Positions 45,702 to 48,703 of a DNA stretch of 49,086 nucleotides are shown here, in pieces (the stretch's first letter is position 1; every line of letters begins with the position of its first letter). The translations under genes were made by a program, and so were the position numbers. Source of the stretch: Methanobacteriota archaeon (lineage in GTDB: Archaea > Thermoplasmatota > Poseidoniia > Poseidoniales > Poseidoniaceae); the NCBI GenBank assembly GCA_002710015.1, contig PAOW01000034.1, forward strand, positions 1 through 49,086. Direction: 5' to 3'. The notes under the pieces were generated by a model. The model worked only from the letters and a program-made list of their open reading frames with translations, did not search any database and was not told where the DNA came from.

Positions 45702-46460
45702 TCAAATATTTGCTAATTCAGGCTCCGGTTTTTGATTATATTCTGATGAGACAATATCAGATTTCAGCGAATCTGCAAGGTATTTCTGCGCTTCAGTGAT
45801 ATAGTCAATAGCAATAAAATCAGGGTGTCTTGACCTATCGATTAGGTTAGAATTCATTTCTTTAGAAATTCCTTCTAGTAGTTTTCTATTTCGAGAATGA
45901 AAATTTTGTATTTTTTCTTCGGTCCATCCGGTTTTATCTATCATTAGCCAGCGGTTATACAGTGTTACTCTGGCAATGAAATTTCCGAGTTTGTGAGAAT
46001 CGTTTAGGTCATCGTCCTCTATCACAGGAACCTGGGGGTATAGAGTGGTGAAAACCTTCGCAAACATCCCAGCACCATCTGTTATTGTAAGCTGGTTTTC
46101 ACCACAATATACCATGACTTTCTCAAGACCAAAAACTGGGGAATCCTTTGAGAAAACAAAGCCACTAATTCCGGATGCAACCAAGTAGTCTGATTTTTCT
46201 TCAGCATACTTAATCATAGCTTCCGTGTGGTCTTCACCGTTTTCTGGATTAATGAGCGATATCCTTTCTTGGTCTTTGATTAACCTCAGTGCTGAACTCG
46301 ACACCCCCATGTCCAATTCAACCTCTGGGCAGACTTCGACCAATTCAAACGATTCACTCCAGTCTTGGTTGAGACCCCTAAACTCAGCGTTTTCGCCGTT
46401 ATGGCGATTCCTTTTTTTGAGGAGACAAGAACATACAGCGAGTTTAGGGTTACTTGTCAT
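45702..46460 (-). CDS. DUF523/DUF1722-type protein with a changed cysteine motif
   Basis: 252 residues. The N-terminal half follows DUF523 (TudS-like): AVCSCLLKKRNRHNG for 'SACLLG..VR.dG', then VCPEVELDMGV for 'CPE...G'. The later motif 'SPSCG' reads SPVFG (107-111), so the third cysteine expected to hold the Fe-S cluster is missing unless Cys119 substitutes. The second half starts a DUF1722-like region (NDSHKLGNFIARVTLYNRW), shortened compared with full YbgA-like proteins. Related DUF523 proteins remove sulphur from thiouracil; whether this one does is doubtful. The start ATG 46460 has a TATATAG-type box 25 nt upstream. Confidence 0.75.
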   Translation of the reverse strand: MTSNPKLAVCSCLLKKRNRHNGENAEFRGLNQDWSESFELVEVCPEVELDMGVSSSALRLIKDQERISLINPENGEDHTEAMIKYAEEKSDYLVASGISGFVFSKDSPVFGLEKVMVYCGENQLTITDGAGMFAKVFTTLYPQVPVIEDDDLNDSHKLGNFIARVTLYNRWLMIDKTGWTEEKIQNFHSRNRKLLEGISKEMNSNLIDRSRHPDFIAIDYITEAQKYLADSLKSDIVSSEYNQKPEPELANI

Positions 46461-46480
46461 GGCAATATTGCAACAACATG

Positions 46481-46490
46481 TCTATATGAA
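46481..46490 (-). promoter_or_regulatory. TATA box of the DUF523-type gene
   Basis: TTCATATAGA on the minus strand, centred 25 nt before the ATG (46460), predicts a leaderless transcript. It sits next to a piece of repeat sequence that resembles the 3' end of copy 3 of the structured element. Confidence 0.6.
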
Positions 46491-46563
46491 GGCCCGTTTT
46501 TTTCAGTGCTGAATACAATAAGGGCATGATATTCCACGAACAAATTCAGATTGAAAGAAAAAT

Positions 46564-46707
46564 GGGTGGGCCCGCTACCCCATGTCCAATAGTACTCCCG
46601 CGCACCTAGACATGTCCCGCAGGGTAGTTGCAGGAACGGGCCCTAGTATGATGCTTGTTCAATACCCTTGCGAGTTTTCAACATAGTTACATCTGCTCTT
46701 TCGAGCA
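46564..46707 (+). ncRNA. Structured repeat element, copy 1
   Basis: Segments pair in a compact order with no gaps between neighbours. The outer helix is GGGCCCG 46568-46574 with CGGGCCC 46637-46643. Complementarity CTACCC 46575-46580 with GGGTAG 46622-46627 runs to a hairpin loop (pseudoknot). The inner helix is CATGTC 46581-46586 with GACATG 46609-46614. The hairpin is TCCCGCA 46615-46621 with TGCAGGA 46629-46635 (one mismatch), loop GGGTAGT. A 3' module ends with a hairpin TGCTC/GAGCA at 46694-46707. There is no coding potential. The same layout in copy 2 with different bases makes a structured RNA or folded DNA site likely; strand is inferred. Confidence 0.55.
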
Positions 46708-47047
46708 ATTCTACTAAGAACTCTCTAAATTTAAGATTATCTCAATCTATTTTCTATGCTATTCGCTAGGCTAAATAGTAGGGGGCCAAGGTGGAAATCT
46801 ATTGCTAGACTCTAGGTCGTGGAACCTAGACTTGACCCGTTTTGATCGATTCACATCAATCTATTTTTTGCATTAAGCAGTGCCTTGCGGCAAAACAACG
46901 ATGAGTATTCAAGATATATGGCTATCGCAGGTTGGTTATTGCGCGAGCGGGGAAGAGTTTTCCAAATTGCAGTATTTCCACGTACTACAAACCGCTCATT
47001 AGGTCAAACTTTACGAAGGACACTCGACTAATAACATTAACTGTAAA
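46708..47047. other. Non-coding stretch between copies 1 and 2
   Basis: About 340 bp with no supported gene on either strand; the open frame at 46932-47231 shows no family features and runs through repeat copy 2. One strong hairpin is present: TCTAGGT 46811-46817 with ACCTAGA 46824-46830. I could find no tRNA or other known RNA pattern. It may be a degenerate cassette or a further RNA. Confidence 0.5.
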
Positions 47048-47257
47048 GGGTGGGCCCGGCTGCCCCACAGCGAAAAATAGTCCCAATTTCCGCTACCTGC
47101 GAATCTTACGCTGCGGAAAGGTCATTTTTCATAAATTGGTATCTACTAACCTGCTGTGTCTCGCAGGGCAAATGCGAGACCGGGCCCGTTGGATGTTAGT
47201 ATTGGTCTTCATCACGATTTCCTCAACTTAGTTACATCTGCTCTTTCGAGCAGATGT
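47048..47257 (+). ncRNA. Structured repeat element, copy 2
   Basis: Same order as copy 1. Outer helix GGGCCCGG 47052-47059 with CCGGGCCC 47180-47187. Pseudoknot TGCCC 47061-47065 with GGGCA 47166-47170. Inner helix CACAGC 47066-47071 with GCTGTG 47153-47158. Hairpin TCTCGCA 47159-47165 with TGCGAGA 47173-47179, loop GGGCAAA. The loop of the inner helix is longer here and itself folds (TTTCCGC with GCGGAAA). The 3' module ends in a 10-bp hairpin ACATCTGCTC 47234-47243 with GAGCAGATGT 47248-47257. Paired bases differ from copy 1 in a compensated way. The gene at 47321 starts 63 nt after the end. Confidence 0.6.
47192..47241 (+). repeat. Direct repeat flanking the 47321 gene, left
   Basis: 50 bp from GATG to CTGC inside the 3' module of copy 2; identical except one base to 48607-48656 (47212-47213 region, CATC versus CATT). 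The pair bounds a unit of 1415 bp containing a single gene. Confidence 0.85.
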
Positions 47258-47291
47258 CTGTATCGATGCCAAATATAAAAAATGCATGATT

Positions 47292-47300
47292 TTTATAAAA
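47292..47300 (+). promoter_or_regulatory. TATA box of the cassette gene
   Basis: TTTATAAAA centred about 25 nt before ATG 47321 predicts a leaderless transcript and supports that start over the upstream ATG at 47282. A second AT-rich box (about 47270-47280) is nearby. Confidence 0.55.
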
Positions 47301-47320
47301 TACAATGGAAACAGGATGTT

Positions 47321-48463
47321 ATGGCTAGAAAGTGCAATACCTGTGGTAGCACAAATTTTCTTGAAATTGTACCGACAACTAATTTCCTAGAAAATACAAT
47401 TAAGACTATGGCCAATTGGTATACTGGCCCTGCTTCGCATTATGTTACTACGGGCTATCCAAAAAGGCAATCCATTGCTGTGACGCCAAATCCGTGGATT
47501 CGCCAACGCAATATGAATCCTCAAGTGAATCATCCCGAATCTGTAATAGGAAACTTAAACCAGATTAGAGAATTGGATTTCGTTACAAAACTCATTTTGG
47601 AGAGCAATGATATTTCCTTAGAGGACTTGGCTGTGATGAATTATCAGCAGTTCAAAAAATGGTTTGAAGATGAAAATCTTAATGAAAATGGCGGATTTAT
47701 CTTTAATTCTAAGGAATATATTGATGTGGCTTCAAAGAATAATATTTCACAAATAACTAGAGTATTAAGGCAAGATGTGAATCATCTAAGTAAGTTCATC
47801 TATGAATATGTAACTAAGTTGGTTAAAGACAAGAGTCTGAGAGAACTTGTTAATTCTGCGACTACTCTTACGTTGAAGGAAATAATATCTGAAGATCACG
47901 ATATATACTCTGAGATGGCCAGGTACAATAGTGATCTCACAGAGATTATAGAAGACCTAACAAAACCAAGAGGAAAAAAGAAACAGATAAAGATTGACGT
48001 TACAATTAGTCAATTAAAAAGGATAATTGATTTCGAAACAGACGACGAACTCAAAAAGTATCGACTACAGATTAAAGATTGGATATCAAAATCACCATTT
48101 GACAGCAGTTACGATAGCATTTCTCGAATAAAGAACAATCAAAATCTAGAATATTTACTAAATCAGAAAGTAGAGCAAAAACAACTTATTTGCAGAGATT
48201 GTGGAACCGTAGGCGAAATATTCTTTGATATTGAATCAGTAATTTCAGATATTAAAAGTAGAATAGAATTTTGGGATAATGCTTGTCAATGGCTAACAAA
48301 GTTCGATAGCTCATTGGTAAATTGGGAGACTCAGAGGAAGGAAAAATTGGCAAAACAAAGGAAAGCCAGAGCAGAAAAGAAAAGGCTCGAGGAAATAGAG
48401 CGACTTGAAGCCGAACAAAAAGCAGTAGAAGAACGTTTGAAGAAATTGAAGAAAGGAGATTGA
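47321..48463 (+). CDS. Unknown protein with two CxxC motifs and coiled-coil tail, in a repeat-flanked cassette
   Basis: 380 residues; no family recognised. Two CxxC pairs, C5-C8 (CNTCG) and C291-C294 (CRDCG), lie far apart and could jointly bind one zinc. The middle is helical and charged, with Lys-rich stretches (KPRGKKKQIKI). The last 45 residues are a highly charged coiled coil (Lys/Glu/Arg/Ala). Compared with neighbours it is AT-rich and has many Asn, Ile and Lys codons, as in horizontally acquired genes. Its stop codon (48461-48463) directly adjoins the start of repeat copy 3 and its promoter follows copy 2. An upstream ATG at 47282 is possible but lies at the TATA boxes. Confidence 0.7.
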   Translation: MARKCNTCGSTNFLEIVPTTNFLENTIKTMANWYTGPASHYVTTGYPKRQSIAVTPNPWIRQRNMNPQVNHPESVIGNLNQIRELDFVTKLILESNDISLEDLAVMNYQQFKKWFEDENLNENGGFIFNSKEYIDVASKNNISQITRVLRQDVNHLSKFIYEYVTKLVKDKSLRELVNSATTLTLKEIISEDHDIYSEMARYNSDLTEIIEDLTKPRGKKKQIKIDVTISQLKRIIDFETDDELKKYRLQIKDWISKSPFDSSYDSISRIKNNQNLEYLLNQKVEQKQLICRDCGTVGEIFFDIESVISDIKSRIEFWDNACQWLTKFDSSLVNWETQRKEKLAKQRKARAEKKRLEEIERLEAEQKAVEERLKKLKKGD

Positions 48464-48667
48464 GGTGGGCCCCGGTCTCTCAAACCACGTTTTTTTCAGT
48501 AAGTGTCAGACTTAACCCCGATTTGCCATATCCCAAATAATCGCTGACTCGATCTAGTTCAATACAAACCGGCACGCCTACCTTGAGAAGGTAGAAGGCC
48601 CGTTATGATGTTAGTATTGGTCTTCATTACGATTTCCTCAACTTAGTTACATCTGCCCCTAAGGGCA
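48464..48667 (+). ncRNA. Structured repeat element, copy 3
   Basis: Begins right after the preceding stop with GGTGGGCC. Outer helix GGGCC 48467-48471 with GGCCC 48597-48601. Hairpin CTACC 48578-48582 with GGTAG 48590-48594 with a 7-nt loop TTGAGAA, as in copies 1 and 2. The loop TTGAGA can pair with TCTCAA 48478-48483. CCGGT 48472-48476 can pair with ACCGG 48568-48572, but here the helix order differs from the other copies, so this copy is more divergent. The 3' hairpin is TGCCC/GGGCA (48654-48667), a compensated change from TGCTC/GAGCA. The middle holds further short hairpins. Confidence 0.5.
48607..48656 (+). repeat. Direct repeat flanking the 47321 gene, right
   Basis: 50 bp, one mismatch to 47192-47241. 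Part of the 3' module of copy 3. The related segment of copy 1 (about 46649-46696) is more diverged but keeps the end TAGTTACATCTGCTC. Confidence 0.85.
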
Positions 48668-48703
48668 ATATTCGTAAAGCGTGCATGGTTTATGTTTTTT
48701 GAT

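Follow-up and report, generated by a model that had tools for sequence, protein, structure and literature searches.

To our knowledge, few structured RNAs have been described from uncultured marine archaea beyond Tan1. The passages that describe Tan1 (Thalassoarchaea ncRNA 1) present it as an abundant 229-nt structured ncRNA of marine group II archaea, called unknown, with five homologues at 75-79% identity (PMC5069720). The element studied here resembles Tan1, as described in those passages, in being a putative structured ncRNA of similar length (about 200 nt), from an order that is probably of the marine group II type (Poseidoniales). It differs in that homologues are reported for Tan1 whereas none is convincing here, the two being compared by description and not by sequence (PMC5069720). 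The window analysed is a whole contig of 49,086 bases (C34), belonging to a genome of 1.70 Mb in 41 contigs that is 82% complete, and the contig end falls within the region of interest.

RNAs of related architecture occur in several other systems. In the THF and SAM-I clan riboswitches, a hairpin loop pairs with a joining strand of a three-way or related junction. The present copies share with them a junction closed by the first helix and a loop pseudoknot, but they have no Rfam match and three of the four have no gene directly downstream. The omega RNA of IS200/IS605 TnpB or of IscB is a pseudoknotted scaffold RNA in a mobile element. Scaffold and mobile setting are alike here; however, no clear guide follows the scaffold, and the TnpB-type family PF07282 had no match in the own genome (82% complete), with 6 of 14 control genomes positive. 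Type III toxin-antitoxin ToxI RNAs are short tandem pseudoknot repeats adjoining a ToxN-type gene. A ToxI-type RNA was rejected, the copies being dispersed and 110-209 nt long, and the neighbouring protein P0001 having neither a Pfam match over the cut-off nor a PADLOC match below E 0.1. An integron attC was also rejected: the tyrosine recombinase family PF00589 gave no match in the own genome vs 14 of 14 controls, although, the genome being 82% complete, a missing contig could hold such a gene.

Anatomy of the copies

Three copies, together with the helices named for them in the original prediction, were all located in the sequence (Table 1). On the minus strand, from 5' to 3', copies 1-3 consist of hairpin H1, helix E (GATGT/RCATC) enclosing a short inner helix, a three-way junction and the end GGGCCCACC. 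H1, with a stem of TGCTC/GAGCA in copies 1 and 2 and TGCCC/GGGCA in copy 3, is present as predicted; it had been called the 3' hairpin and becomes the 5' end of the RNA once this is read on the minus strand. Its loop is GAAA in copies 1 and 2, TTAG in copy 3 and GCAA in copy 4, a probable further copy discussed below. A linker, ending in AAC in copies 2-4, precedes helix A.

The junction runs from the 5' side of helix A directly into hairpin D, then through hairpin C and strand B3 to the 3' side of A, after which ACC follows in copies 1-3. Closing helix A (7-8 bp) reads GGGCCCG/CGGGCCC in copies 1 and 2, GGGCCTT/GGGGCCC in copy 3 and GGGTCAA/TTGGCCC in copy 4. Hairpin D has 5 bp in copy 3 and 7 bp in the other copies, the predicted fold giving copy 4 an eighth pair. 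In copies 1-3 the D loop, which measures 7 nt in copies 1 and 2, pairs with strand B3 just before the 3' side of A and forms pseudoknot B. The sequence contains both versions of this pseudoknot that had been claimed (CTACCC/GGGTAG in copy 1, TGCCC/GGGCA in copy 2), and the inner helix C likewise keeps its pairing between copies 1 and 2 (CATGTC/GACATG vs CACAGC/GCTGTG). Neighbouring helices in these two junctions are separated by gaps of 0 or 1 nt. Helices A, B, C and D are also present in copy 3, with looser spacing.

Table 1 Candidate RNA copies and neighbouring features, in window coordinates
Feature	Position	Strand	Remarks
DESULF gene	45702..46460	-	Pfam 2-thiouracil desulfurase type; flank of the apparent island
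TrhO-type (rhodanese) gene 3'-end remnant	46513..46547	-	35 bp; att-like repeat at the presumed island border
RNA copy 1	46565..46707	-	143 nt; 5' at 46707
Copy 1 outer helices	H1 46707-46703/46698-46694; E 46693-46689/46654-46650; A 46643-46637/46574-46568	-	
Copy 1 junction helices	D 46635-46629/46621-46615; B 46627-46622/46580-46575; C 46614-46609/46586-46581	-	
Weak TATA-like box CTTAAATT	46728..46735	-	starts 28 nt before copy 1 H1; 6/8 of consensus
Probable RNA copy 4	46783..46892	-	diverged; without loop pseudoknot
Copy 4 5' hairpins	H1 46892-46881; hairpin 46861-46844	-	H1 TGCC-GCAA-GGCA; hairpin GATTGAT-GTGA-ATCGATC
Copy 4 junction helices	A 46838-46831/46790-46783; D 46830-46811; C hairpin 46809-46798	-	
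RNA copy 2	47049..47257	-	5' at about 47252; H1 extendable to 47257
Copy 2 outer helices	E 47238-47234/47196-47192; A 47187-47180/47059-47052	-	
Copy 2 junction helices	D 47179-47173/47165-47159; B 47170-47166/47065-47061; C 47158-47153/47071-47066	-	
TATA-like box TTTATATT	47272..47279	-	starts 27 nt before copy 2 H1; 7/8 of consensus
ORFan P0001	47282..48463	+	393 aa (alternative ATG at 47321); lies between copies 2 and 3
RNA copy 3	48464..48667	-	
Copy 3 outer helices	H1 48667-48663/48658-48654; E 48653-48649/48611-48607; A 48601-48595/48473-48467	-	two G.U in A
Copy 3 junction helices	D 48594-48590/48582-48578; B 48588-48583/48483-48478; C 48572-48564/48526-48518	-	

Promoter-like boxes were scored against what we take to be the TATA consensus. 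The box before copy 2 is equalled by 0.4% of random places and that before copy 1 by 8.6%, while copy 3 has a match of just 4/8, equalled by 83% of random places. At its 3' end, copy 1 has ACC and then CATTTTTCTTTC, a hint as to where a transcript might end. As transcription signals, the boxes and this 3' sequence are hints only.

Probable strand of the RNA

The RNA lies most likely on the minus strand, opposite to the first description, whose copies and helices stand but which missed the probable copy 4 and the GATGT/RCATC helix as well. Copy 1 folds with an MFE of -59.9 (z -3.72) on minus vs -43.2 (z -1.02) on plus, and copy 4 with -39.1 (z -4.11) vs -26.8 (z +0.35). Both strands of copy 2 fold well (-77.1, z -4.60, on minus vs -76.5, z -4.31, on plus), and neither strand of copy 3 is exceptional (-59.1 with z only -1.40 on minus vs -48.4, z -0.66, on plus). 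The consensus fold of the three copies, based on a MAFFT alignment in which part of copy 3 is misplaced, has 38 pairs on minus, 8 of them changed on both sides, vs 22 pairs and 3 such changes on plus. In a sliding fold scan of the minus strand (40 shuffles per scanned segment), z was -3 or lower over copies 1, 4 and 2, but also within the DESULF gene, where it fell to -4.51.

Base pairing points the same way. Among the 126 named-helix pairs of copies 1-3, read on minus, 118 are Watson-Crick, 8 are G.U and none is of another kind, the 8 wobbles being C.A on plus; the count is partly biased because the helices had been chosen on the minus strand. Four of the eight wobbles, in helices E and D of copy 1 and in helix A of copy 3, are at sites fixed by the other copies. 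Thus helix D of copy 1 has a C.A mismatch on plus that becomes G.U on minus, as does helix E (GATGT/GCATC on minus). In copy 3, the two final pairs of helix A would be C.A if read on plus but form G.U on minus. A plus-strand RNA was rejected on two grounds: its folds are weaker for copies 1, 3 and 4 and about equal for copy 2, and it has C.A mismatches at homologous sites.

Pseudoknot layout and compensated base changes

The junction layout was scanned for on both strands as a closing helix of 7 bp with an adjoining hairpin of 5-7 bp and a 5-8 nt loop, five loop bases being required to pair just before the 3' side of the closing helix. Copy 2 scores 53, copy 1 scores 51 and copy 3 scores 44, and the next-best site of the window reaches 41. 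The maximum over 20 Markov-shuffled 49-kb sequences was 47, and unrelated sites score 47 and 45 among 14 loci (121,783 bases, copies included). Hence copies 1 and 2 exceed chance by layout score. Since unrelated and shuffled sequences score up to 47, copy 3 is not exceptional on score alone; it is counted as a copy because it stands at the place predicted by its homologues.

The original prediction that bases change while pairing is kept was borne out: in a hand register, 11 pairs are changed on both sides with pairing retained, and there are 0 unpaired cells. Compensated pairs number 2 of 7 in helix A (four copies), 4 of 7 in D (copies 1, 2 and 4), 3 of 6 in C and 1 of 6 in B (both copies 1 and 2), 1 of 5 in H1 and 0 of 5 in E (both copies 1-3). 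The hand register was used for A, B, C and D because the MAFFT alignment placed the 3' domain of copy 3 wrongly. As we set the register ourselves and selected helices for pairing, the counts show consistency and do not amount to a formal test. Sliding the partner strand by 1-3 columns lowers the paired cells of the 5' half from 97.6% to 24-51%. A shuffle control on the same half had no power with its three rows, 158 of 500 shuffles reaching the observed covariation. With no convincing homologue elsewhere, the covariation rests on four paralogues of one MAG.

A probable fourth copy

Copy 4, which lies between copies 1 and 2, was first spotted by eye and tested afterwards. It keeps H1 and the A, D and C elements of the junction. 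It is described as lacking the pseudoknot because the loop of D is similar to the strand preceding A instead of being complementary to it. Its fold is strong on minus over two stretches (z -4.11 for 46775-46900, -5.2 for 46742-46871). On the other hand, 3 of 8 shuffles attain its junction score (35), and two unrelated window sites on minus score 36 and 35. The stretch 46783-46892 is probably a fourth copy, for which the fold z and its position in the array speak.

A further observation is that CGTGGAA at 46976-46982 on minus, 84-90 nt upstream of the 5' hairpin of copy 4, complements TTCCACG of its D-loop region.

Searches for homologues

Rfam 15 gave no match at gathering thresholds over the window, none at E<=5 for 46500-48700 and none at E<=10 for 46700-47060, as expected of a family new to Rfam. 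BLAST of copy 2 against 61 genomes found the own genome only. A 22-letter motif, allowing up to 3 mismatches, matched in 26 of 318 genomes, the own included, vs 34 for the reversed control pattern. A script check of the 28 motif loci (of 30) outside the own genome found none with both GGGCCC and the pseudoknot layout: two (L028, L045) carry GGGCCC within the 320 nt expected to hold the RNA, and one (L031) has the layout at a chance-level score of 39.

A first covariance model (R1) found the own genome only among the 318. In R1, helix E and its inner helix were one column out of register, so that the search effectively relied on sequence plus H1. A corrected model, R2, run on 14 sources, recovered copies 1-3 and missed copy 4 (window included, E up to 5). 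Such modelling, the check proposed with the original prediction, finds copies 1-3 but yielded no convincing homologue in the other genomes covered. A search with copy 4 in the 318 genomes gave 15 other genomes at E 0.004-0.05, and the fold was absent by eye in the 15 inspected of the 16 candidate loci.

Viral contigs contained 15 and 11 exact motif matches, none of them related. The loose GGTGGGCCC pattern matched at least 120 stretches of these contigs, and no locus examined passed the pseudoknot filter. One exact motif had 2 matches in the species genome collection, taken as chance. Phages gave no match for copy 2 or for the stretch with copies 1, 4 and 2, and plasmids none for that stretch. 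Overall, no convincing homologue was found in 317 other genomes of the order (BLAST on a subset, motif, R1 and copy 4).

Genomic setting

The array apparently lies at one end of a genomic island. The remnant beside copy 1 is identical at 32 of 35 positions to the end of an intact gene on contig C1 of the same genome (L229, near 3455), and is the sole window site with at least 22 identical bases. The intact gene, which we take to be of the TrhO type, has the Pfam domains UPF0176_N and Rhodanese and is 85% identical to that of a relative over 267 aa. In 8 of 11 loci of relatives the end of the TrhO-type gene precedes DESULF, and 3 loci differ; among 6 such loci, 4 show the gene whole, as an ORF. 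Beyond the intact gene, C1 (L229:2-3451) encodes an AAA ATPase (PF00004), matching PADLOC IetA at E 3e-20, and an AAA_11-type helicase that is truncated where the contig ends and matches PADLOC MkoA at E 1e-19. Homologues of both, at 50% and 33% identity, lie beside DESULF in relative G017 (L220). From the relatives, C1 and C34 would bound one island. The 35-bp repeat at the two presumed borders suggests an integrative island at this spot, and the locus resembles a hot spot where genes, possibly related to defence, can be exchanged.

A 74-bp stretch upstream of DESULF (46476-46549), holding the remnant and the segment AAAAAACGGGCCTTCATATA, is 82% identical to relative L216; more varied forms of the segment occur at the same place in other relatives. 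For 46248-46377 and 46037-46113, in the DESULF coding region, strong minus-strand structure is predicted (z -4.51 in the sliding scan), along with a nearby 20-nt inverted repeat of 90% complementarity. An NrdG-like radical SAM gene is present in 1 other of 79 genomes.

P0001 has a stop codon that touches the 3' end of copy 3, and its GC content is 34% vs 43% for window positions 1-46460. It contains two CxxC pairs; a long charged helix is predicted at its C-terminus and is the only confident part of the AlphaFold model, whose overall mean pLDDT is 38.9. It has no Pfam match over the cut-off and no PADLOC match below E 0.1, and searches of 310 other genomes, viral contigs and phages gave no homologue.

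Discussion

The evidence argues strongly for minus-strand structured RNAs under selection. We think it probable that the copies, three clear and one probable, are diverged paralogues of one structured RNA and form a small ncRNA family private to the mobile island. The new ncRNA family originally put forward thus gains from strand-specific folding, compensation, the probable fourth copy and the absence of an Rfam match, and loses from the lack of a convincing homologue in the other genomes searched, which goes halfway towards the refutation set out originally. Each copy may be transcribed separately, as a short unit that begins at the 5' hairpin and stops at ACC or just beyond it. We tentatively propose that the RNAs act as partners of an island-encoded protein; they would act in trans, as the RNA part of a protein-RNA complex, with defence or island maintenance as the most likely role. 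P0001, which has no recognisable domain and lies between copies 2 and 3, would be the nearest candidate partner.

The other reading offered originally, a folded single-stranded recombination site, fared less well. Sites of the attC or transposon-end kind, folding on the minus strand and used by a recombinase to move island genes, would suit copies that are intergenic near the island border, one of them beginning at the P0001 stop codon, and G.T wobbles work in single-stranded DNA too. We nevertheless consider such sites unlikely, as the own genome has no Phage_integrase match (82% complete; 14 of 14 controls positive) and no TnpB-type match, the border repeat is the TrhO 3' end and not the RNA element, and the GNRA-type loops and TATA-like box fit RNA better. 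There is also little to recommend non-autonomous mobile element copies, with hairpins as relics of transposition and no selected RNA. The copies are indeed repeated, island-borne and known from a single genome, and the transposase search covered PF00589 and PF07282 only; however, they differ by compensated changes and not by random decay, and copies 2 and 3, though widely different in other parts, share 90% identity over 61 nt.

A likeness to tRNA was also considered. The own tRNA-Val (anticodon TAC, L074) has the 7-bp stem GGGCCCG/CGGGCCC, an A and CC in common with copies 1 and 2, and stacking of helix A with the loop pseudoknot might give about 12-13 bp, resembling an acceptor plus T stem. 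The RNAs differ from tRNA in the three-way junction, in the final A of CCA, which is not encoded, and in the other stems of copies 3 and 4; ARAGORN finds no tRNA in the window. The likeness of stem and ACC to the tRNA-Val acceptor end is real in letters but, given the different stems of copies 3 and 4, may be coincidental. It is therefore doubtful that the 3' domains mimic an acceptor-T arm through the pseudoknot and serve as decoys or RNA partners, with P0001, in island defence or addiction, a lesser case because the likeness is limited to copies 1 and 2.

Riboswitch-like cis leaders of minus-strand genes are very improbable: riboswitches commonly combine a three-way junction with a loop pseudoknot, and the DESULF start codon lies 105 nt past the end of copy 1, but only this copy is close upstream of a same-strand gene, copies 2 and 4 running into the next copy and copy 3 into the antisense of P0001, the TrhO remnant and a segment shared with relatives separate copy 1 from DESULF, R2 finds no copy there in relatives, and Rfam has no match.

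If the reading as an island-borne RNA family is true, four members on a variable island would point to an island function based on RNA, the presumed opposite end of the island carrying genes akin to those of defence proteins. With the strand corrected and copy 4 included, the family is directly testable in existing metatranscriptomes.
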